DNA of 25,949 nucleotides, from positions 1 through 25,949 of IMG/VR virus record IMGVR_UViG_3300042564_001538; one strand, given 5' to 3'. This stretch comes from a virus. Shown here piece by piece: positions 853 through 21,877 of the stretch. Below the pieces are notes generated by a model. It searched no databases. It had not been told where the DNA came from and worked only from the letters and a program-made list of their open reading frames with translations. Every line of letters starts with the position of its first letter. Position 1 is the stretch's first letter. The position numbers and the translations under genes are program-made.

Positions 853-2043
853 ATGGCTATACCATCTAGACAAATAGGTTGGGGAACAGAAGAAAATCTG
901 TTATGGCAAATCTCTAAGCAGTTAGAGTACTTGTCAGGCATTACATATAATAGTGGTGGAGGATCAGGTTCAGGTACTAATGGCACTTCTGGTGTTAGTG
1001 GTACATCTGGAGTTAGTGGTACTAGTGGAACTGCAGGTGCTTCTGGTACATCTGGTTCAGCAGGTACTGCAGGATTGAGTGGAACCTCAGGAAGCTCAGG
1101 TGTAACTGGTACGTCTGGTTTATCTGGAGATAGATATAGAACAGAGTCTGTAACAGAGTTTACATTAGGTACTGGTGGAACTATAACTGTAGGTACAGGC
1201 TTAGCATATACTACAGCTCAAGATATTATCATAGCATATAATTCTACTAACCACCAAGTTTCGATGGTTACTTCTTATGACTCTGGTACAGGTATATTAG
1301 TATTTGGTACACCTTCTGAGGTTGAAGGAACAGGAACATTTAGTGACTGGACAGTTAACCTTAATGGTGCTGCAGGTGGTAATGGAACTAATGGAACGTC
1401 TGGATCTGCTGGAACAAGTGGACTATCAGGAACATCAGGTGTTGCTGGTACGTCAGGCTCTGCTGGTACTTCAGGTGCTACAGGAACTAATGGGTCCTCA
1501 GGAACTTCTGCATCTAGTGGCACAGCTGGTACAGCTGGTCTTACAGGAACTTCTGGAACTAGTGGAGTTAATGGAGCTGTTGGTGGTTATCTAGGATCTT
1601 TCTATGACACTACAACTCAAACAGGTGTTGCAGGAAGTGTTCTTACAATGGGTCTTAGTAATTCAGATTCTTGGAACAATGGTGTTTCACTTGTTTCTGG
1701 TAATCAAATAACTATAGCTAATCCTGGTGTATATAATATACAGTTTAGTGCTCAGATGGTAAAAAATGCTGGCAACACTGCAACACATGCACATATTTGG
1801 TTAGCACAAAATGGTACAAATGTAGCTACTAGTGCTTCTCAACTAGGATTTCCTTCTAACTCTATATATGTAGTTGCTGCTTGGAATTTCTTTTTCAAAA
1901 CAACAGTTGCAAATGAGTATGTTCAACTTAAGTGGGAAATAAATAGTAATGCAGATAATGCAGTAGCGATTACATCAGCTGTAGCTTCAGGAGATATTCC
2001 TGCTATTCCTGGTCTTATTGTAACAGTTAATCAAGTAGGATAA
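853..2043 (+). CDS. Collagen-like tail fibre protein with C1q-like C-terminal head
   Basis: A 396-residue modular virion protein, probably a trimeric fibre. Residues 1-33 form an N-terminal module (starts [10 protein letters not shown]) repeated almost exactly in the next gene, so it is likely the virion attachment part. Residues 35-92 and 172-245 are Gly-X-Y repeats dominated by GTSG, GVSG and GTAG, a collagen-like stalk. Between them (93-171) is a compact Gly/Thr-rich domain of a type common in collagen-like phage proteins. Residues 246-396 look like a C1q/TNF-like beta jelly roll, with the typical end-of-strand pattern around '[13 protein letters not shown]' and 'EYVQLKW'; such heads usually trimerise and bind receptors. 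The stalk is rich in Thr and Ser, which could be glycosylated. A putative glycosyltransferase gene lies two genes downstream. Start chosen at the ATG matching the paralogue. Confidence 0.88.
955..1128 (+). repeat. Collagen-like Gly-X-Y repeat, first block
   Basis: DNA encoding residues 35-92 of the fibre protein: repeated triplets of the GTS/GVS/GTA type. Codons for Gly, Thr and Ser are mixed, so the repeat is conserved at protein level and not as an exact DNA satellite. Confidence 0.85.
1366..1587 (+). repeat. Collagen-like Gly-X-Y repeat, second block
   Basis: DNA encoding residues 172-245 of the fibre protein, again GTSG/GSAG/GVAG-type triplets. It forms the stalk just before the C-terminal jelly-roll-like head. 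Confidence 0.85.
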
Positions 2044-2047
2044 AATT

Positions 2048-2305
2048 ATGGCAATTCCATCAAGACAGATAGGCTGGAGTACAAAGAGCAATTTGCTTTG
2101 GCAGATTTCTAAGCAATTAGAAGCTCTGACAGGTATTATGTATAATAGAGGTGAGACTACTACTACCACTACATCTAGTAGTACTAGTACAACAACCAGT
2201 ACATCTACAAGTACAAGCACAACTACTACAACTAGTACAAGTACTTCAACTACAACCACAACAACTACAGTAGCACCAACAACAACGACAACTACTACAG
2301 TATAA
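2048..2305 (+). CDS. Short Thr/Ser-rich virion protein sharing the fibre N-terminal module
   Basis: Residues 1-35 ([10 protein letters not shown], then [18 protein letters not shown]) nearly duplicate the N-terminus of the upstream collagen-like fibre, so both probably dock to the same virion site. The rest (37-85) is almost pure Thr and Ser with a short VAP break, ending in a Thr run. There is no C-terminal globular domain. The Thr and Ser codons vary (ACT, ACA, ACC, ACG, AGT, TCT), which argues for selection on the protein. This is a mucin-like composition and a likely acceptor for O-glycosylation, possibly by the glycosyltransferase encoded 22 bases downstream. It could also be a spacer, or a truncated duplicate that lost its head. 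Confidence 0.8.
   Translation: MAIPSRQIGWSTKSNLLWQISKQLEALTGIMYNRGETTTTTTSSSTSTTTSTSTSTSTTTTTSTSTSTTTTTTTVAPTTTTTTTV
2156..2302 (+). repeat. Thr/Ser low-complexity tract (mucin-like)
   Basis: ACN/AGT/TCN-rich tract coding for about 49 residues of Thr and Ser. The synonymous codons are mixed. It is similar in composition to tracts at 3497-3613 and 4074-4259, so it could support recombination between the genes. Confidence 0.85.
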
Positions 2306-2327
2306 TATAAATTAAACCAACAACTAC

Positions 2328-3344
2328 ATGAAGGAATTAAAGTTTATCTGTGCTCAACCAGATGATACCTACTACACTTGGCAGGTACATCTATGGTTAG
2401 AAAGCTTAAGAAACATTGGACATTCAGATAAGGCTATCGTACTTATCTTTATCCCATCATTCAGAGAGAAGAATGAGAAGTGGCAACAGGTGATAGATCT
2501 TTATCCAGAAGCAGAGTTTGCTTTCTATAAGGATCAAGATGGTGTTAGTCAGAAGTTAGGAATATATATTCCTGTTCTGCGACCATATGTATTAATGCGT
2601 TACTGGCAGGACAATCCAAATATGAAAGACAAAGCTGTCTTCTATTGTGACTCTGACGTATTGTTCACAGATAAATTTAATGTTGATGCATATATTGATG
2701 ATGATATAAACTATTTATCAGACACCAATAGCTACATTAACGCTTCATATTTTGATAGTAAGATACATCAAGTGCTTCCAGAAAGATTGGAAGCATATAA
2801 GCAGCTAGATGTTCTTGAAGACATTGCCACACAGTGTGGTATATCAAGAGCAATAGCAGAAGCTAACAACGAACACTCAGGAGGTGCTCAATATTTGTTG
2901 AAGAATATTGACGCCATATTCTGGGAGAAGGTACTAAGAGATTGCATTACAATACGTAGTTATTTATTAAACATAAACAAACTATACTTCAAGGATGAAT
3001 CTGCAGGCTTTCAAAGTTGGTGTGCTGACATGTGGGCTGTCCTCTGGACTATTTGGTTTAGAGGTAGGGACACTAAGAATTTACCTGAAATGGAATTCTC
3101 TTGGTCGTCAGATCCTATTGAGAAGGTCCACAGGCTTGGCATCCTGCACAACGCAGGAATAGTAAACAAAAACATGGGTGACTACCCAGCATTTTATAAG
3201 GGTGAGTATATTAATGGTAATGATCCATTCACTGATCCTCATTTAGAATTAGTATTCAACGATTCAAGAGCACAAGAGAAAGGTACACACTACTATGTTG
3301 AGCAAATGATGAAACTTAAATTTAAGTATAAATTAAATTATTAA
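2328..3344 (+). CDS. GT-A-fold glycosyltransferase-like protein
   Basis: A 338-residue protein with the hallmarks of a nucleotide-sugar glycosyltransferase. An N-terminal beta-alpha region (residues 1-45) is followed by the strand-plus-DxD motif AVFYCDSDVLF (D108 and D110), which in GT-A enzymes binds the metal and sugar nucleotide. Further on, a conserved-looking SGGAQYLLK segment resembles the acceptor/product loop of enzymes that glycosylate Ser, Hyp or Thr in proteins; a WCADMWAV segment and a late HNAGI segment complete the pattern. It sits between genes for Thr/Ser-rich virion proteins (2048-2305 upstream, 3350-3859 and 3924-4265 downstream) on the same strand and probably the same transcript. 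I infer that it glycosylates these fibres. It could instead modify host surface glycans. Family assignment is by eye, so the exact CAZy family is left open. Confidence 0.7.
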   Translation: MKELKFICAQPDDTYYTWQVHLWLESLRNIGHSDKAIVLIFIPSFREKNEKWQQVIDLYPEAEFAFYKDQDGVSQKLGIYIPVLRPYVLMRYWQDNPNMKDKAVFYCDSDVLFTDKFNVDAYIDDDINYLSDTNSYINASYFDSKIHQVLPERLEAYKQLDVLEDIATQCGISRAIAEANNEHSGGAQYLLKNIDAIFWEKVLRDCITIRSYLLNINKLYFKDESAGFQSWCADMWAVLWTIWFRGRDTKNLPEMEFSWSSDPIEKVHRLGILHNAGIVNKNMGDYPAFYKGEYINGNDPFTDPHLELVFNDSRAQEKGTHYYVEQMMKLKFKYKLNY

Positions 3345-3349
3345 ATAAC

Positions 3350-3859
3350 ATGGCAATTCAGAGAGATTTAAAAGCATTTGTTCGCTACGATGGTAGTGGA
3401 AGGGTTGTTGCAGGCAGCCTTATTCTGAGAAAGAACAAGCCAAAAGTGGGAAGATGGCAAGAGATTCCAGCATATGAGTGCTGTAATTACATTCCTACAA
3501 CTACGACTACTACGACAGCTAGTCCAACGACAACAACTACTTCTAGTAGCACTTCTACTTCTACAAGTACAACAACTAGTACATCAACGTCTACTACGAC
3601 AACTACTACTACTCAAGCATCTATAAGTGTAGGAACAAATTCAGAATCTTGTGGAACACCTAGTACCTTTGTAGACGTATCGTTTGTTGTTGGTAGTAAT
3701 ATATGTGACACAAGTGTTCAATTACAAGGTAGCTTCTCAACGTTCCCTTCAGAATTTTATATAATCTATGGTGGATTTTCAAGATTAGTTATTAAAATTA
3801 GTGATTCAATAATTCAAGGTGCAGGAGGAGCTCCTGGTGAATGTGTTTCTTGTGGGTAA
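3350..3859 (+). CDS. Modular virion protein: N-terminal module, Thr/Ser linker, C-terminal domain
   Basis: The 169 residues divide into three parts. Residues 1-49 are a compact module (AFVRYDGSGR ... SLILRKNKPK ... WQEIPAYECCN) shared with the gene at 3924-4265. Residues 50-88 are a Thr/Ser tract. Residues 90-169 are a unique Cys-containing, beta-rich domain (Cys near 'SESCGTP', 'NICDTS' and the C-terminal 'GECVSCG') that may be the binding tip. The CC pair in the N-terminal module is retained in the paralogue. The layout attachment module - flexible glycosylatable linker - head mirrors that of the collagen-like fibre, using a different attachment module. Starts 5 bases after the glycosyltransferase stop. 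No known family recognised. Confidence 0.8.
   Translation: MAIQRDLKAFVRYDGSGRVVAGSLILRKNKPKVGRWQEIPAYECCNYIPTTTTTTTASPTTTTTSSSTSTSTSTTTSTSTSTTTTTTTQASISVGTNSESCGTPSTFVDVSFVVGSNICDTSVQLQGSFSTFPSEFYIIYGGFSRLVIKISDSIIQGAGGAPGECVSCG
3497..3613 (+). repeat. Thr/Ser low-complexity tract (mucin-like)
   Basis: Codes for about 39 consecutive residues that are nearly all Thr or Ser, linking two globular domains. The beginning (TTTTTTTASPTTTTTSSS) closely matches the start of the tract in the gene at 3924. Confidence 0.85.
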
Positions 3860-3880
3860 TAATCTAATTAAATAATAAAT

Positions 3881-3905
3881 AGAGCACATCATAATGGTGT
3901 GCTCT
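3881..3905 (+). terminator. Hairpin between two fibre-like genes
   Basis: AGAGCACATC (3881-3890) pairs with GGTGTGCTCT (3896-3905) through ten pairs including one G-U, with an ATAAT loop. It is followed by AT-rich DNA but not a clean T run, so it may be a weak terminator or an RNA processing/stability element in the intergenic gap. Confidence 0.55.
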
Positions 3906-3923
3906 ATATAAAATATAAAAAAT

Positions 3924-4265
3924 ATGGCCAATAGTAATAATCAATTAAAAGCATACGTTCGTTTCGATGGAACAGGACGTATTGTACCAAGCAGCTTAAT
4001 CTTACAAAGATTTAAGCCTAAAGATGGTAACTGGCAAGAAATAGACGCAAAAGAATGTTGTAATTTTGTTCCAACAACTACAACAACTACCACTGCGACT
4101 CCTACGACTACGACTACGTCGTCTTCAACAAGTACATCAACATCTACTAGTACGTCAACTAGTACTTCAACTAGTACAAGTACTTCAACGTCAACGTCTA
4201 CTAGTACAACTACGACTACGACAACTGCAGAACCTACAACGACTACTACTACAACAGCATTATAA
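3924..4265 (+). CDS. Thr/Ser-rich virion protein sharing the second N-terminal module
   Basis: Residues 1-50 (AYVRFDGTGR ... SLILQRFKPK ... WQEIDAKECCN) match the N-terminus of the 3350-3859 product, including the CC pair. Residues 51-112 are then nearly all Thr and Ser, with long TS alternation and Thr runs broken by ATP and AEP. No head domain follows, so the protein is an attachment module plus a mucin-like tail. Synonymous codons are mixed across the tract. Probably exposed on the virion and a candidate for O-glycosylation. Its stop overlaps the next start as TAATG (4263-4267), suggesting translational coupling. It may be a decoration, a spacer or a truncated duplicate. Confidence 0.8.
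   Translation: MANSNNQLKAYVRFDGTGRIVPSSLILQRFKPKDGNWQEIDAKECCNFVPTTTTTTTATPTTTTTSSSTSTSTSTSTSTSTSTSTSTSTSTSTSTTTTTTTAEPTTTTTTTAL
4074..4259 (+). repeat. Thr/Ser low-complexity tract (mucin-like), longest copy
   Basis: Encodes about 62 residues of Thr/Ser, including a long alternating Ser-Thr stretch. It shares composition and a similar beginning with the tract at 3497-3613. Confidence 0.85.
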
Positions 4266-4678
4266 TGGCTAAATCATTATTCCCACAAGAAATGTTAAGT
4301 AAAGCAACTGGTAGCGAGCTCTCATTAGAGAGCATCGCTGCTAAGCTTACTTACTTTCATGAGCAATTACACTTGACTCACTGGCAAACAAAAAGCTATG
4401 CAGAACATCAAGCCACAGGAGCATTGTATGATTACGTACATGATTTCAAGGATGGATTGATTGAGAAGCTTATGGGCTATACAGGTAAGAGACCTGGAGC
4501 TTATAAAATAGAACCTCTTACAGACTGTACAGCTGAGCAATGTGTATCAGATATCATGTCATTTGCATCATCATTAAAGATGTATGGTGAAAAGAATGCT
4601 TATCATGATGTATGTAACTTAGCTGATGCATTATCTGGAGAGGCAGCAAAAACTAAATATCTATTAACCTTGTCTTAA
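4265..4678 (+). CDS. Dps/ferritin-like phage protein (DUF5856-like)
   Basis: The 137-residue, mostly helical protein has the pattern of a Dps/ferritin-like helix pair: LHLTHWQTKSYAEHQATG (about residues 35-52) followed by LYDYVHDFKDGLIEKL. In Dps proteins an HW...H...D spacing of this kind supplies the ferroxidase ligands, and here H, H and D fall in comparable places. It also resembles DUF5856, a phage family. The two Cys near 'DCTAEQC' are unusual for Dps. Translation is coupled to neighbours by TAATG on both sides. It may bind metal or simply reuse the helical fold as a virion component; a true iron-storing role is not shown. Confidence 0.65.
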   Translation: MAKSLFPQEMLSKATGSELSLESIAAKLTYFHEQLHLTHWQTKSYAEHQATGALYDYVHDFKDGLIEKLMGYTGKRPGAYKIEPLTDCTAEQCVSDIMSFASSLKMYGEKNAYHDVCNLADALSGEAAKTKYLLTLS

Positions 4679-8173: not shown

Positions 8174-8710
8174 TTATGGTTGTAATGAATTATATGTAGA
8201 TAACACTTTATTAATGTAGTGTTTATTCTTTGCTCTGTTATAACAGTTCTCAGCAAACACGCCATCTGCATCTCTTCTATTTATAACAAACTTTTCATCA
8301 CCTATTAATGATGTATGCACAATAAAGTTATGACTATCAACATAGCTTAACTTAACTATGTTTCCATATAGTCTGTGTGCACCACTCTTCCAAATCTGAT
8401 CAAATGATATAAAATCATTATCTAGATCTTTGATATTATCCCATAAGTCTGGATGCATGATTGTATCATCGTCTTGTAAATACACCCAACCTTCTGTTAT
8501 CAACTCAAGTGCTAAGTTTCTTTGACCAAAACCAGATACACTATTTACATCTTTAATGCAATAAGCTTCACACTCTGGGATGTTTTCTGGAATAGTTTCT
8601 GAATCAAAAACAACAATCCACCTATAATGTTCTTTAGGTATATTGATACTTTTAGATACAACATCTAAGTTTTCTGGTCTTGAGCAGGGGGTTATTATGT
8701 TTAAGAACAT
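8174..8710 (-). CDS. Family-2-like glycosyltransferase (short)
   Basis: 178 residues with a GT-A start (MFLNIITPCSRPENL) and the metal/nucleotide-sugar motif in WVYLQDDDTIMHP (D80-D82). QRNLAL before it matches the usual family-2 helix. A conserved-looking late segment (VHTSLIGDEKF) could be the acceptor side. It is shorter than typical family-2 enzymes (about 220-300) but covers the core. Last gene of a three-gene cassette (glycosyltransferase, methyltransferase, this), with 1-2 base gaps. Probably adds a sugar to a virion or host-surface glycan. Confidence 0.75.
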   Translation of the reverse strand: MFLNIITPCSRPENLDVVSKSINIPKEHYRWIVVFDSETIPENIPECEAYCIKDVNSVSGFGQRNLALELITEGWVYLQDDDTIMHPDLWDNIKDLDNDFISFDQIWKSGAHRLYGNIVKLSYVDSHNFIVHTSLIGDEKFVINRRDADGVFAENCYNRAKNKHYINKVLSTYNSLQP

Positions 8711-8712
8711 AT

Positions 8713-9270
8713 CTATTTATTTAACTTTATAATCCAACTAGTATCTTGAAACGTTTCATCAGGCTCACCTATTGTTTCATGTATAGCATCTATAACTCCT
8801 TGCCAAACTGGATGATGATCATGACCACTAATAAATCCAGATTCTTTGATTAAGCTCTTATAGTTATTGATGTCTTTCTTAACTTGATCATAGGTGTGTA
8901 AACCATCAATATAAATTATATCTACCTTGATATCTTTAAGCTCATCAACAGCATCGTCAGATGTTTTTCTGATATGAGTTATGTTATCATACTTAGAGGT
9001 TGTTGAACTAAAAGTATTATAAACATTTGTAAGGTCCATATAGCTGCAAGCAGGATCGTTTGGATCATAATCATTCATAAAAGGATCAATAGCTATGACA
9101 CTTTTAAAGTTCTGAGCAAACATTTCTGTTGACTCTCCAGCATAAGATCCAATCTCAATGATAGTCATCTCCTTAGTGTCAGAAAATGTATTCACATAAT
9201 TGATTAAGTCTTCTAATCCATTCTTATAATGCCCACTTCTCATGGCATACAGCGTATCTTTAATTGACAT
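8713..9270 (-). CDS. SAM-dependent class I methyltransferase
   Basis: 185 residues. The SAM-binding motif I is TIIEIGSYAGEST (about 36-48), followed by an acidic strand end (VIAIDPF), then VDIIYIDGLHTYDQV and GFISGHDHH. This matches the Methyltransf_24-type family, often found in polysaccharide and glycan gene clusters, where members methylate sugars or small molecules. It lies between two glycosyltransferases with 1-2 base gaps, so I infer it methylates the sugar they transfer. DNA methylation is unlikely, as no NPPY or PC motif is present. Confidence 0.8.
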   Translation of the reverse strand: MSIKDTLYAMRSGHYKNGLEDLINYVNTFSDTKEMTIIEIGSYAGESTEMFAQNFKSVIAIDPFMNDYDPNDPACSYMDLTNVYNTFSSTTSKYDNITHIRKTSDDAVDELKDIKVDIIYIDGLHTYDQVKKDINNYKSLIKESGFISGHDHHPVWQGVIDAIHETIGEPDETFQDTSWIIKLNK

Positions 9271-9271
9271 A

Positions 9272-10024
9272 TTATTTATCTTTATTGATGAAATCTTTTA
9301 ACATTTGTGGATAGTCTTTAACCCAATGAGGATTAAGTTTAACTTCTCCTACAGGTATTACTCCTTTGCGTCTTTCTTTCTCTATGTGAGCACTATGTCT
9401 TTGTATAGCGTTAAGTTTGTCAGGATGATCAGTACCCTCACCACTCATATGATATCCTCTACCACCCCACATATAGAACCAACTAGCTTCTTCCTTAGGT
9501 GGATTAGCAAATAGTCTTCCTCCATATTCATGAATACGCTCAATGAAAGTCATATCATATCCAGCATTCTCAAGAGGATGTCCTCCTATAGCTTTCCAAG
9601 CTGACTTCCTGAACACAATACCAGAGTTTCCCACCCAACCAACATGTTCAATCCCTGTAACGTGACACAACACTCCCACTTCCCAATGAATAATATTTAC
9701 ATCATCAGTCATGTACTTAGCTACATTCTGTAAGTGATTTGATAGGGCTACATCATCATCATCCCACTGACATATAATTTCTCCTTGACATAATTCTGTT
9801 GCATAGTTTTCTTTTTCTCCTATGATATCAAAAGTTTTGTCTAGGTTAACTATCTTAATTTGTGGATGATCAAATACAAGAGTTTGTAAGGGGTAGTCAT
9901 TAACTATTATAAGCTCACACTTATCAGCAGGATAGTCCTGCTTGAGGAAAGATTCAATACTCTCCTCAAGCGTGGACACTCTACCATACGTTATACACTT
10001 ACATGATATGAAAGGTAGTTCCAT
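9272..10024 (-). CDS. Family-2 glycosyltransferase
   Basis: 250 residues with clear family-2 features: an N-terminal strand and loop (FISCKCITYGRVSTLEESIES), KCELIIVNDYPL, and the metal-binding run CQWDDDDVAL (D88-D91). A later segment (GHPLENAGYDMTFIERI) fits the acceptor/catalytic region with an acidic residue. First gene of the glycan cassette that continues with the methyltransferase and the short glycosyltransferase. Substrate unknown. The cassette could modify the Thr/Ser-rich virion proteins of the opposite strand or host envelope sugars. Confidence 0.85.
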   Translation of the reverse strand: MELPFISCKCITYGRVSTLEESIESFLKQDYPADKCELIIVNDYPLQTLVFDHPQIKIVNLDKTFDIIGEKENYATELCQGEIICQWDDDDVALSNHLQNVAKYMTDDVNIIHWEVGVLCHVTGIEHVGWVGNSGIVFRKSAWKAIGGHPLENAGYDMTFIERIHEYGGRLFANPPKEEASWFYMWGGRGYHMSGEGTDHPDKLNAIQRHSAHIEKERRKGVIPVGEVKLNPHWVKDYPQMLKDFINKDK

Positions 10025-12968: not shown

Positions 12969-13121
12969 CTACTCTTTAGATCCCTTCACCCACTTAGGGG
13001 TGTAAGGACAGTTCTTACACTTATTGCCACAGCAGACGCCTCTACTTGCTAAGAATTCTCTAGACAAGCTCGCAGGCACCTCCACCACAGGCAACTGATT
13101 CGTTGAAGTTAACTGTGTCAT
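12969..13121 (-). CDS. 50-residue Cys-rich protein (DUF5522-like), overlapping nrdJ 3' end
   Basis: From ATG at 13121 to TAG at 12969-12971, a frame of 50 codons, the first 20 or so overlapping the reductase gene in another frame. The C-terminal half reads SREFLASRGVCCGNKCKNCP then YTPKW: a CC...C..C cluster followed by PY, as in the small DUF5522 proteins that probably bind metal. The conserved-looking part lies beyond the reductase stop (13060), so it is not merely a shadow. Start is uncertain; a TTG closer to the motif is possible. It may act in metal or redox handling near the Cys-dependent reductase, but this is inference. Too short to be found by length-based gene calling. Confidence 0.68.
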   Translation of the reverse strand: MTQLTSTNQLPVVEVPASLSREFLASRGVCCGNKCKNCPYTPKWVKGSKE

Positions 13122-14910
13122 CTATCTCTTTAACTTTAGTGATATCAATCTCTTTTAACTGACCAATGCGTGAATTGTATTGCTCTTCAGTGATGTCTTC
13201 AAATGGAGCTTGTTGATATGTTCCACCCCAATAAGGTAGTACAGACAAACCATTATAGAACTCACGATTCTCCCACATCCAGTCACCTACAGTCTTCCAC
13301 TCATCTTCCTTAATAGAGATGGTAGCAGATACGTTGTGTGTATTGTCACCATTAACATGTCCTGCATTGATCCAATCAGTAGAGAAATGTTTAACTCTCT
13401 CTAATGTATCAATAGCAGTTTCTGTACGAAGAATAGAATTCTCTGGTGCCTTAACAGGAATACGTACACAGATGGTATCTTGTGGGCGTAACACATCATC
13501 CTCAACTAACTCTGGATGATTCTTCATTAGATACATAGCAATGTCTTCGTTCTTATTGAAACGCATTGTACGTAAATAATAATCGTTATGCCATGCATGA
13601 ATACCTGATGCTGTTCCTAACACTAGTGATGTAGTGCCTGAAGGTTTAACACAACTAATACGAGCTGCCTCATTGATGCCTGTTCTTTCAGAAATCATTT
13701 GGTTAACCTTCTTAGCAATGTGTGCTGCCATCTTCAAGTCATACTTCATGATCTCACCTGATCCAATACCAGTCATACCAATACCCAATAGAGCATCGTG
13801 CTGTGTAGTCTTAGCCCAGATAGGACGTAAGTAATGAAAGTCTGTAAAGCCTGCTTGTAATGTACCAAAGAATGCTGCAGCACCTACACGATTGTTAAGA
13901 TCATACTGGTCTTGTACATCAGATACATTCACTTCACATAGGTTACAGAACTGATATGGACGTAGAGCAATCTCACAACATGGGTTGGTTCCCCAATCTT
14001 TGTTGTTAGTCCAATACAATCCTGGCTCTCCTGATCCTGATGCTTCTACACGCTTCCATAACGCCATGAACTCTTCTTCACTCACTTCTCCACGTTTTAA
14101 TACAGCAGAGTTGTTAGCACGTCCACGTTGTTCGTTAAGTTCCCACCAATTACCATACTTACATGTAATCATCTCTTCATCATCATGATCAAATAGAGAG
14201 ATCATAGCTGAGCGACGAATACCACCAGCTAATACAGAGTTAGCAATGTGACATAAGATATCATGGCAGTCTAGTGGAGATAACTTCTCACCTTCAGCCT
14301 TTCTATCTAACATAGCCTGAACATGTGTAAGACATAACTTCAATGGCTCTGGTCCTGGTGCTTTACCACCAGCTGTAACTAGACGTGCACCTTTCTCACG
14401 AACTGCACGATAGTCAAACTTAGGTAGGAATGATCCTTCAAGATAAGCTTTCATTAACACCTTTACAGCATCAGCCCAGCCCATGATGGAGTCTTCAATT
14501 AAATAAGTACGAGCCTTACCTGGTTTCTTGATTTCAGGTAGTTCAGCTACGTGATGGCGTTGTACAGAATAACCTACACCTGTACCACCTAATAACAAGA
14601 ACATTGCTTCAGAAAAACTATGTAAGCTATCAATAGGAAGATAACAACAGTTGTAAATACGAGCGTTGTTAACTTCAGCAGCAGCACCAGCAAACTGTAG
14701 TGCTCTCATAGAAGGCAAGATCTTCTTGTCTCTAATCATTGGAATAGACTCCTTGATTGACTCCTCTAAATAAGGATACTTCTTAATCATCATAGCCTCA
14801 TAACGACTAATGATTTCATCCCACGTTTCTCTTCTGTTTAGCTCAGGGATGTACTTGGCGTACTTGCTAAACACTGTAATTTTACTCAAGGCTTCTAGTC
14901 CTAAATCCAT
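13060..14910 (-). CDS. nrdJ: Adenosylcobalamin-dependent (class II) ribonucleotide reductase
   Basis: 616 residues, related to the monomeric B12-dependent ribonucleoside-triphosphate reductases (for example Lactobacillus RTPR, about 740 residues). The NPCCEI motif (309-314) gives the thiyl-radical Cys and Glu; FCNLCEVN (321-328) has the partner Cys; LGGTGVGYSVQRHH and KPSGTTSLVLGTASGIHAWH are typical class II/I barrel segments; and the C-terminus CGGGAC (C608, C613) is the CxxxxC pair that re-reduces the active site. No small-subunit (NrdB) gene is present, as expected for class II. It reduces ribonucleotides to deoxyribonucleotides for phage replication and needs host cobalamin. No ATP-cone is visible. 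Promoter and terminator elements lie upstream at 14943-14981. Confidence 0.9.
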   Translation of the reverse strand: MDLGLEALSKITVFSKYAKYIPELNRRETWDEIISRYEAMMIKKYPYLEESIKESIPMIRDKKILPSMRALQFAGAAAEVNNARIYNCCYLPIDSLHSFSEAMFLLLGGTGVGYSVQRHHVAELPEIKKPGKARTYLIEDSIMGWADAVKVLMKAYLEGSFLPKFDYRAVREKGARLVTAGGKAPGPEPLKLCLTHVQAMLDRKAEGEKLSPLDCHDILCHIANSVLAGGIRRSAMISLFDHDDEEMITCKYGNWWELNEQRGRANNSAVLKRGEVSEEEFMALWKRVEASGSGEPGLYWTNNKDWGTNPCCEIALRPYQFCNLCEVNVSDVQDQYDLNNRVGAAAFFGTLQAGFTDFHYLRPIWAKTTQHDALLGIGMTGIGSGEIMKYDLKMAAHIAKKVNQMISERTGINEAARISCVKPSGTTSLVLGTASGIHAWHNDYYLRTMRFNKNEDIAMYLMKNHPELVEDDVLRPQDTICVRIPVKAPENSILRTETAIDTLERVKHFSTDWINAGHVNGDNTHNVSATISIKEDEWKTVGDWMWENREFYNGLSVLPYWGGTYQQAPFEDITEEQYNSRIGQLKEIDITKVKEIDDTVNFNESVACGGGACELV

Positions 14911-19528: not shown

Positions 19529-21877
19529 CTATGCAGCTTCATCTAATGATATCACCTCTACCTCTTTTACTACTGAGGTGAACTTGTAATTAGGCTTACC
19601 CATACGTGTCTTTTTGTAACGACACATATCTTTAAGAACACTTATCATTGGATCCACAGTAGAACCAGGATAGGTTCTCATGTGATATGCAATTGTTTCT
19701 ATAAATGGAAACTTTGTAACAAGCTTATCTACTTTCAATAACATTGGATACATCTCTACATCATACTTGTTATTGTCTGAAGCAAACTTATCAATATCAA
19801 ATGCCTCACATTTATGTGATACAACATAATCATAATAATAAATCTTCTTAAACTTTACTAGTCTATCTACATCATATGTAAGATCAGGGAGTACATCTCT
19901 CATTCCTGGCTTAGCATCAAATGTAGCATCGTAAACACTCATCATCTTCTTGATAAGTCTTGCAGTAGCAATACGTCTGAATGGTTTGTTATCACCTTTT
20001 AAGAATGTCTCTAGGCTCATAAAGTTATGAAGATTGTACATCTCCAATACTTTAATCTCTCTATCAGACATAATTACTAAGTGAACATGATTCTTGAACA
20101 TACCAAATAGATAATCTAGCACTGGACGATCAGTCTCCTTACCATAAACAGTCAAGCTCTTTCTCCTGTGAAGAGTCTTACCACTCAATATGATAGGTGT
20201 GAACTTAGCATTACCACCTGTATAACGCTCAGGAGTTTCAGCTATCTTGCAATTGACATCACCTTTCTCCTTAACAGTGCCATCTTTAGCAGCTTTAGGT
20301 TTAGGCTTAGCGTTCTTTGCTTTGTCAGCAATAATCCATGCTTCTGGTATCTCAATAGCGTCAAGATCAATAAACTCTTCAACTATCTTATTAACACAAG
20401 ATTGAAACTCTGTAATGATAGCTCGCCACTGTGTCTTAGGATAGTTGTACAACTTCAATAGATCAAAGTAGGAAGACATGTCTGGAGTACCTGTACTATG
20501 AGTGTGTCTAGTCCATGTCTTATCTTTAGAGAATAATGTGAAATCCTTAACCTTTTTGATAAACTTTACAGATCTACCTTTCCATATCTCTTTGATGTAA
20601 CGACGTTTACGATCACCAAATACACCAGTGAATATAGCAAGCTGAGAAGATGCTCTATGTCTACTAAGATTAACTTCCTTATCCCATTGACCTCTAGTTT
20701 CATATAGTCTACTTCTGTAACTATTAAGTTCATACTTTGCTTCATACTCACGCATCATATAGTCTTTAACTTTGAAAAGACTTTCTGCTGTGAAATACGT
20801 ACATCCTATCAACGTTGGTTTACGCATTGGGATAGTAGCATGCTTCAAGATCTCAGTAACTTCCATATCATCACCATTGTGGTTCTTGATATATCTAGAA
20901 CTTGAACTAAAATACTCAATAGCTGTACGTACATCATCAGTATCTACAATAGTTTCATTGTATTTAGCCATGAATACGTTAGCTACAGTTGCAATCTTAT
21001 CAAGGATAATCTGCTTAGCTTCCTGAGTGTATCGTAATGCCTCTCTGTTAGGAGTTGGAAAGATACCATCTGTAAGACTAAACTTAAGACCAAGACGTAC
21101 GTCAATACGTTTGATGCCAAGCTTGTCAAAGTCTAATGGATAGTAAACGTTATCAAGACATACGTGAAGATAATGATCTGGGCATAGCTCAGACTTCTGA
21201 TAGTGCTCACTTCTAATAATGTTGAACTGGTTATCCATACCTTCAACATCAAAGTACACGCTCTCAAAATATGCTAGCTGCTCTTTAATCTTAGTCTTGA
21301 AGTCATAGCTGTCTGACCACTTAACAGGAATAGTAACCTTAACACCATTACTGTGTGGTGTAAGTGTCTCATGTAACAAGTCAATAGAGTTAACGTCTTC
21401 TCCTTCGTACATCATATACTTACGCTCCACACCATTCTTGCGTGTTGTAAAGTAGAAGCTAGATGCATAGGCTAATGGAGCCTTGAAACCAAGGCCCATC
21501 ATACCTAATTCTGTGGTAGAGTTACGCTTTGTACTCTTACCATACTTACTGATAATGTTTTCTACATCATCAGCATCTAAGCCTGTACCAAAATCCTCAA
21601 CAGAGAATTCATAACTATTATTGTTATTCTTGGATAGTTTAACAATAATTGGTGCATCTACACCTGCTCTACGATGAGAGTCTAGTGCATTACTTGCACA
21701 CTCTCGTATCGTAGAACCAATTGCATCTGAGTAAAGATTTTTACTCAACATCTGCATCAATACTTGTGCAGAATCTAAGTCTAATGACATACCAATGGTA
21801 GCCTGTGTACCATTGACTTCGTGTATTAAAGATTGTTTTTGTTTTTCTAAGATCATATCTCTACTTTTTGTAGCCAA
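19529..21877 (-). CDS. rIIA: RIIA-like GHKL ATPase protein
   Basis: 782 residues, similar in size to T4 RIIA (725). The N-terminal GHKL (Hsp90/gyrase-type) ATP-binding domain is clear: N-box IRECASNALDS (E59, N63, D66), G1 box VEDFGTGL (93-100), and the lid with GMMGLGFKAPLAY (125-137). The remainder is a long charged region with predicted helices and no further motif I can name. In T4, RIIA and RIIB together prevent phage exclusion. The gene precedes rIIB in the same orientation and overlaps the uracil-DNA-glycosylase-like gene by 25 bases, so it is likely co-transcribed with DNA-metabolism genes. Confidence 0.9.
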   Translation of the reverse strand: MATKSRDMILEKQKQSLIHEVNGTQATIGMSLDLDSAQVLMQMLSKNLYSDAIGSTIRECASNALDSHRRAGVDAPIIVKLSKNNNNSYEFSVEDFGTGLDADDVENIISKYGKSTKRNSTTELGMMGLGFKAPLAYASSFYFTTRKNGVERKYMMYEGEDVNSIDLLHETLTPHSNGVKVTIPVKWSDSYDFKTKIKEQLAYFESVYFDVEGMDNQFNIIRSEHYQKSELCPDHYLHVCLDNVYYPLDFDKLGIKRIDVRLGLKFSLTDGIFPTPNREALRYTQEAKQIILDKIATVANVFMAKYNETIVDTDDVRTAIEYFSSSSRYIKNHNGDDMEVTEILKHATIPMRKPTLIGCTYFTAESLFKVKDYMMREYEAKYELNSYRSRLYETRGQWDKEVNLSRHRASSQLAIFTGVFGDRKRRYIKEIWKGRSVKFIKKVKDFTLFSKDKTWTRHTHSTGTPDMSSYFDLLKLYNYPKTQWRAIITEFQSCVNKIVEEFIDLDAIEIPEAWIIADKAKNAKPKPKAAKDGTVKEKGDVNCKIAETPERYTGGNAKFTPIILSGKTLHRRKSLTVYGKETDRPVLDYLFGMFKNHVHLVIMSDREIKVLEMYNLHNFMSLETFLKGDNKPFRRIATARLIKKMMSVYDATFDAKPGMRDVLPDLTYDVDRLVKFKKIYYYDYVVSHKCEAFDIDKFASDNNKYDVEMYPMLLKVDKLVTKFPFIETIAYHMRTYPGSTVDPMISVLKDMCRYKKTRMGKPNYKFTSVVKEVEVISLDEAA

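Follow-up and report, generated by a model that had tools for sequence, protein, structure and literature searches.

The window analysed here, the whole 25.9-kb stretch covering positions 1-25,949 of IMG/VR virus record IMGVR_UViG_3300042564_001538, encodes a predicted glycosyltransferase (GT; 2328-3344) beside short genes whose products contain nearly pure threonine (Thr) and serine (Ser) tracts. This enzyme probably modifies the phage's own virion proteins by adding an O-linked sugar to their poly-Thr/Ser tags, a reading to which we assign a rough probability of 0.84 from sequence comparison and structural modeling. In the proposed mechanism, a phage-encoded GT-A enzyme dependent on metal and a nucleotide sugar would transfer the sugar to Thr hydroxyls of the tags. 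The acceptors would be the short flanking proteins encoded from 2048, 3350, and 3924 in the window phage, the products of other same-strand genes as well in near-complete relatives, and the C-terminal tails of major capsid and major tail proteins in relatives from Bacillota. The most likely benefit would be a coat of glycans, which would shield the particle or change the contacts that its surface makes. By this combination of a portable tag and a dedicated enzyme, phages from several bacterial phyla probably sugar-coat their own particles.

In a profile search, the GT matched PHROG_4417 over residues 4-328 (E = 7.6e-52), as did a homologue at another locus (L100, E = 4.9e-120); the library annotates this family as 'unknown function' and also as 'prophage pi2 protein 34'. 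The GT sequence had no match in Pfam, NCBIfam, or the PDB, and Pfam GT8 matched none of 44 family members, leaving the profile search that the original prediction had proposed with neither GT8 nor any other Pfam model. Structure prediction, proposed alongside it, supported the claim of a GT-A-like enzyme. An AlphaFold2 model built on 44 homologues has a GT-A fold (predicted local distance difference test score 95.1, predicted template modeling score 0.92) and gave 148 PDB matches at E ≤ 0.001, of which the best 50 were all glycosyltransferases. The top match was glycogenin (GT8; E = 4.6e-7, template modeling (TM) score 0.58 by target), with GT6 enzymes next. Among viral models, the nearest were Orf49 of Lactobacillus phage LP65, which is also a homologue, and a protein of an uncultured phage. 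The DSD motif noted earlier is real (residues 108-110), and D108, D110, H274, G277, and K291 are invariant in the 44 homologues at identities down to 26% and include the DxD and the presumed metal/phosphate-binding His and Lys, a pattern as expected of a putative metal-dependent nucleotide-sugar transferase.

The five predicted open reading frames (ORFs) around this gene, starting at 853, 2048, 2328, 3350, and 3924, are all present, packed tightly on a single strand in an operon-like arrangement. Tract lengths agree with the roughly 49, 39, and 62 residues first estimated: 38 residues of pure Thr and Ser in 2048-2305 (49 in all with VAP and a run of seven Thr, T7), 39 in 3350-3859 (27 Thr, 10 Ser), and 51 in 3924-4265 (33 Thr, 16 Ser; 62 in all with AEP and T7), against a combined Thr and Ser background of 11% in the other window proteins. 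The codon variation reported within the tracts also holds, as each mixes three to four Thr codons with several Ser codons and no two of the window's seven T7 runs are spelled alike in DNA; the tracts are therefore not a simple DNA repeat. The product of 853-2043 has the Thr/Ser-rich, collagen-like stalk ascribed to it, with a GTSG repeat matching PF01391 (1.5e-14) and tail-fiber PHROG matches (phrog_5073, 3.5e-15). It shares an N-terminal module (its residues 1-33, ...QISKQLE) with 2048-2305, and a second N-terminal module is common to 3350-3859 and 3924-4265. The N-terminal modules of the tract proteins had no match in annotated phages, and that of 3350 and 3924 occurs in 124 distinct sequences with variable tracts. 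In the AlphaFold2 model of ORF 3350, a module of ∼45 residues is folded and the tract behind it is unstructured; past residue ∼45 the model is too poor for a structure search. Pfam matches of the tract proteins, mucin included, were rejected as composition artefacts, and the score for the eukaryotic-type mucin model PF01456 stayed below its curated cut-off (E = 0.083; 13.3 bits against 34.7). The Thr/Ser tracts behind the label 'mucin-like fibers' are real, but the label itself is too narrow, since relatives tag capsid, tail-tube, small decoration-type, and giant fiber-type proteins.

Homologues of the GT with ∼22-34% identity were found in 74 annotated phage records, nearly all from phages of Lactobacillus, Enterococcus, Staphylococcus, and Lactococcus. 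In these Bacillota phages, the GT gene often adjoins capsid or tail genes whose products end in poly-Thr. The head protein of Enterococcus phage phiFL2B, for example, ends in ...TTTTTKPTTTTTKPTTTTTTTQG and its tail protein in ...TTTTTSTTTTTTSSTTTTTTTQASSK, while the capsid protein of Lactococcus phage 1706 ends in ...TTTTTTTTTHHD and its orf13 product in ...TTTTTTTTTTHHD. PHROG profiles identify the tailed Bacillota proteins as major head (phrog_10, 840, and 544) and major tail proteins (88, 238, and 2645). Poly-Thr tails were present at 34 of 34 loci in Bacillota bacterial genomes, mostly prophage-like, and were usually borne by the major tail protein encoded immediately before the GT and by a capsid protein five or six genes upstream. 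When a neighbor was defined as a same-strand ORF with at least five consecutive Thr (T5+), called from ATG starts only, one accompanied the GT at all 80 window-like loci, all 34 Bacillota genome loci, 79 of 80 Gram-positive loci from IMG/VR, and six of eight phage records. The survey of related phages thus found tract genes and enzyme together across phyla. In the 5.6-Mb Bacillus genome of L107, where three proteins are tailed, the pattern (ACN)7 has only three matches, all within ∼2.2 kb beside the GT. When different tagged proteins of a phage were compared in pairs, their final residues, behind the Thr run, agreed in 16 of 44 pairs (3.3 by permutation). One prophage (L260) has both its capsid C-terminus and its GT disrupted, and at another locus (L131) the GT is broken up into three ORFs and the tail-protein tag is retained; both disruptions could be decay or sequencing error.

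Enzyme and tail are also gained and lost together, and capsid relatives from genomes without the GT had no tail. An even sample of 299 genomes from one order included 30 with a clear relative of one capsid family. The capsid has a poly-Thr end in four of the 30, precisely those that encode the GT, and the remaining 26 have neither tail nor enzyme, the whole genome having been checked for the latter. A maximum-likelihood tree of 62 capsids was built on the core only, with tails trimmed by match to a tail-less query. All 17 rows with the GT are tailed and none of the 45 in which no GT was found is, and the tree needs 11 changes for the GT and 11 for the tail. Phylogenetically independent pairs were concordant in 11 of 11 comparisons (p = 0.00098), a result that did not change when rows with insufficient downstream sequence were dropped to leave only those of known GT status. 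Close relatives can differ, as L109 has both GT and tail and its sister clade (L229, L231, and L235) has neither. That tag and enzyme are mere neighbors by shared descent is rejected by the 11 concordant pairs. A functional link between GT and tag is very likely, given the sample of 30, the tree, the independent pairs, the shared end residues, and the (ACN)7 clustering. The claim that the enzyme O-glycosylates the tracts thereby gains strong support from the predicted fold, the co-occurrence across phyla, and the concerted gain and loss with C-terminal tails.

Such a linkage would look identical if poly-Thr served to dock the GT on the virion, with another residue or protein being glycosylated, or if the GT were a minor virion component that modifies the host surface; other phage glycosyltransferases do modify host glycans. 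However, the tag consists almost entirely of hydroxyl residues, which are the natural acceptors of O-glycosylation, it occurs on several proteins per phage, and glycogenin, the closest fold, glycosylates protein, which makes this alternative very improbable.

Among runs of 4-9 Thr not flanked by Ser, counted over related sequences that are not fully independent, seven Thr occur in 175 of 241 runs at window-like loci with the GT (eight in 47, four to six in only 14), and six and seven dominate at Bacillota loci with the GT (79 of 104). Poly-Thr contigs that lack the GT, a set ascertained by a run of ∼10 or more so that only its shape informs, show counts that drop steadily from four to eight with no peak at seven. 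The 318 T7 runs comprise 166 different DNA strings, and for this reason the T7 length argues for a constraint at the protein level, by selection on the peptide. It also suggests that the GT may need or fill about seven Thr. Replication slippage at ACN/AGN codons could in principle have expanded the tracts as a functionless by-product, and the tracts do contain weak short-period DNA repeats and (TS)n length varies between near relatives. Yet the many DNA strings behind the T7 runs, the mixed Thr codons, and the agreement between tag and GT across the tree leave slippage with next to no credibility.

The tags of the window's own lineage lie on different proteins. In near-complete relatives, (ACN)7 occurs at several sites, all on one strand per genome and often far from the GT, in giant proteins of 1,500-2,400 amino acids, in smaller multi-domain proteins, and in C-terminal tails. 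Many of these tracts are inter-domain linkers in large proteins, and poly-Thr proteins also exist in phages without this GT, as would be seen if the tracts were mere flexible linkers or stalks in modular fibers and the GT acted elsewhere, on a host surface glycan, DNA, or a small molecule. That explanation is nevertheless unlikely, because the Bacillota tags are C-terminal tails that track the GT in every independent comparison, and because six to seven Thr are held in phages with the GT and not in poly-Thr contigs without it.

Several observations weigh against O-glycosylation of the tags by this GT. A reverse scan of viral fragments with a coding run of at least nine Thr found the GT in seven of 57 and not in the other 50, and 17 of 21 larger records also lacked it, by which the converse proposition, that poly-Thr implies this GT, is rejected. 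Tags without the enzyme may be served by other enzymes, or some may be plain linkers. Two of the eight phage-record loci, ENFP1 and PMBT8, have no T5 ORF under the ATG-only criterion; the former has TTVAP repeats instead, and in the latter the major tail protein ends in a 16-Thr run and starts with TTG, so that the ATG-only caller missed it. Homologues on Bacteroidota chromosomes sit in loci resembling those for peptide natural products, where poly-Thr partners are not consistent. Finally, the tagged proteins of the window's lineage have no relatives in annotated phages, and their virion location is put forward by analogy, because 2048-2305 shares a module with the collagen-like fiber gene and the Bacillota tags are on capsid and tail proteins.

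Phages that lack PHROG_4417 may contain a second enzyme-tag pairing, judging from gene content. Six of the 17 poly-Thr records without the GT have a Glycos_transf_1 domain over the cut-off, indicative of GT-B enzymes, and at one locus (L427) a GT4-type gene shares its gene cluster with that of a major tail protein that has 14 Thr and a Glu at its end. At three loci without PHROG_4417 (L385, L427, and L420), poly-Thr likewise forms the C-terminus of virion proteins, major tail proteins (PHROG_807) among them.

The gene neighborhoods of the Bacteroidota chromosomal branch look like those of a family of glycosylated secreted peptides. In its members (L124-L130, L132, L133, L135, L136, and L138-L142), the GT domain is the N-terminal part of longer proteins, often of 440-590 amino acids, which often adjoin double-glycine-leader peptides (...LKxVLGG...), LanC-like proteins, and C39-peptidase ABC transporters. 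Among the peptides, a few are Thr-rich, such as WTTTTTTSSV at L141. In a broader and more tentative proposal, somewhat short of even odds, T7, often repeated as T7-xxP, would be a portable encoded O-glycosylation tag placed on displayed virion proteins of Bacillota and Bacteroidota phages and read or filled to about seven Thr by PHROG_4417, unrelated GT-B enzymes may serve other poly-Thr tags, and the chromosomal branch would act on secreted leader peptides of Bacteroidota.

The original prediction had also suggested that the late minus-strand cassette at 8174-10024 could complete the glycan. As a conserved partner, the cassette is rejected: seven of 17 relatives with the GT have a close homologue (>60% identity) of its GT2 gene and four have none, the methyltransferase was found in one of 17, and this variable set lies outside the conserved system. 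It could still decorate the glycan in the window phage.

Table 1. Coordinates of the GT locus and the minus-strand cassette in the window.
Feature	Position	Strand	Remarks
Collagen-like (GTSG repeat) fiber-type protein	853-2043	+	396 amino acids; without poly-Thr tract
Tract protein	2048-2305	+	85 amino acids; N-terminal module, Thr/Ser tract 2156-2269, VAP, T7 2279-2299
GT-A glycosyltransferase (GT), PHROG_4417	2328-3344	+	338 amino acids; fold predicted
GT residues	DxD 2649-2657; HxxG 3147-3158		DxD, D108 and D110; HxxG, H274 and G277; also K291
Tract protein	3350-3859	+	169 amino acids; folded N-terminal module of ∼45 amino acids, Thr/Ser tract 3497-3613 (predicted unstructured), C-terminal domain of low model confidence
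Tract protein	3924-4265	+	113 amino acids; N-terminal module as in 3350-3859, Thr/Ser tract 4074-4226, AEP, T7 4236-4256
Protein with sub-threshold GT43-like match	8174-8710	-	178 amino acids; E = 0.086, below curated cut-off
Methyltransferase (PF13578)	8713-9270	-	
GT2-family glycosyltransferase (PF00535)	9272-10024	-	accessory

Close IMG/VR relatives of the window sit on contigs of up to ∼119 kb, and Chryseobacterium phage MA9V-3 is one distant relative; because of this phage and the IMG/VR relatives, a Bacteroidota host is likely for the window phage. Between 3350-3859 and 3924-4265, a perfect 8-bp inverted repeat (AGAGCACA ... TGTGCTCT, 3881-3905) with a 9-nt loop precedes an A/T-rich stretch and is a possible terminator or processing hairpin. 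The last tract gene's stop overlaps with the start of a DUF5856/starvation-inducible regulator gene (PHROG_858; 4265-4678), which is kept downstream of the tract genes across the window's lineage. Elsewhere, the window encodes a ribonucleotide-reductase large chain (13060-14910), of which MA9V-3 has a B12-dependent one annotated, and a large protein with a HATPase domain that resembles phage proteins of the rIIA type (19529-21877).

The enzyme-tag pair predicts virion glycosylation in widespread phages of Lactobacillus, Enterococcus, Staphylococcus, Lactococcus, and Bacillus relatives and of freshwater Bacteroidota. If the proposal is true, glycosylated virions would be predictable from sequence, by a run of ∼7 Thr together with the GT gene, and the run would be a candidate simple peptide tag for protein glycosylation. 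For PHROG_4417, of which the window GT is a member and to which the library assigns no function, a role as virion glycosyltransferase is proposed here. The enzyme resembles glycogenin and CAZy GT8 in its nearest solved fold, its DxD and HxxG/K arrangement, and the proposed use of a protein acceptor. It differs in having only 10-13% identity, a TM score of 0.39-0.48 by query, and no Pfam GT8 match, and its proposed acceptor is Thr, whereas that of glycogenin is Tyr. Eukaryotic mucin domains likewise have dense Thr/Ser stretches that are presumed O-glycan carriers, but the phage units are T7 blocks separated by xxP, and PF01456 stays below its cut-off. Of the benefits first suggested for a glycan-coated fiber, mucus binding found no support and protection against proteases no evidence here, and shielding of the virion is plausible only by analogy with mycobacteriophages.

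To our knowledge, mycobacteriophages are the only phages for which glycosylation of the virion by the phage's own enzymes has been demonstrated, and a search of open-licence papers on poly-Thr tails of phages found nothing relevant. Mycobacteriophage virions are O-glycosylated by phage-encoded glycosyltransferases, and the capsid and tail-tube subunits carry the glycans at their C-termini (Freeman et al. 2023, Cell Host Microbe 31:1216, as relayed in PMC12619734 and PMC10877033). By those accounts, the modified subunits are the same proteins that have poly-Thr tails in the Bacillota relatives, whereas the window's own tags are on other proteins. None of the 74 phage records with a GT homologue is from Mycobacterium, and the capsid and tail proteins of mycobacteriophage Che8 have no poly-Thr tail. 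Virion glycosylation is thus already known in mycobacteriophages, and the system proposed here differs in its enzyme family (PHROG_4417), in its hosts (Bacillota and Bacteroidota), and in its acceptor, a repeated Thr block.

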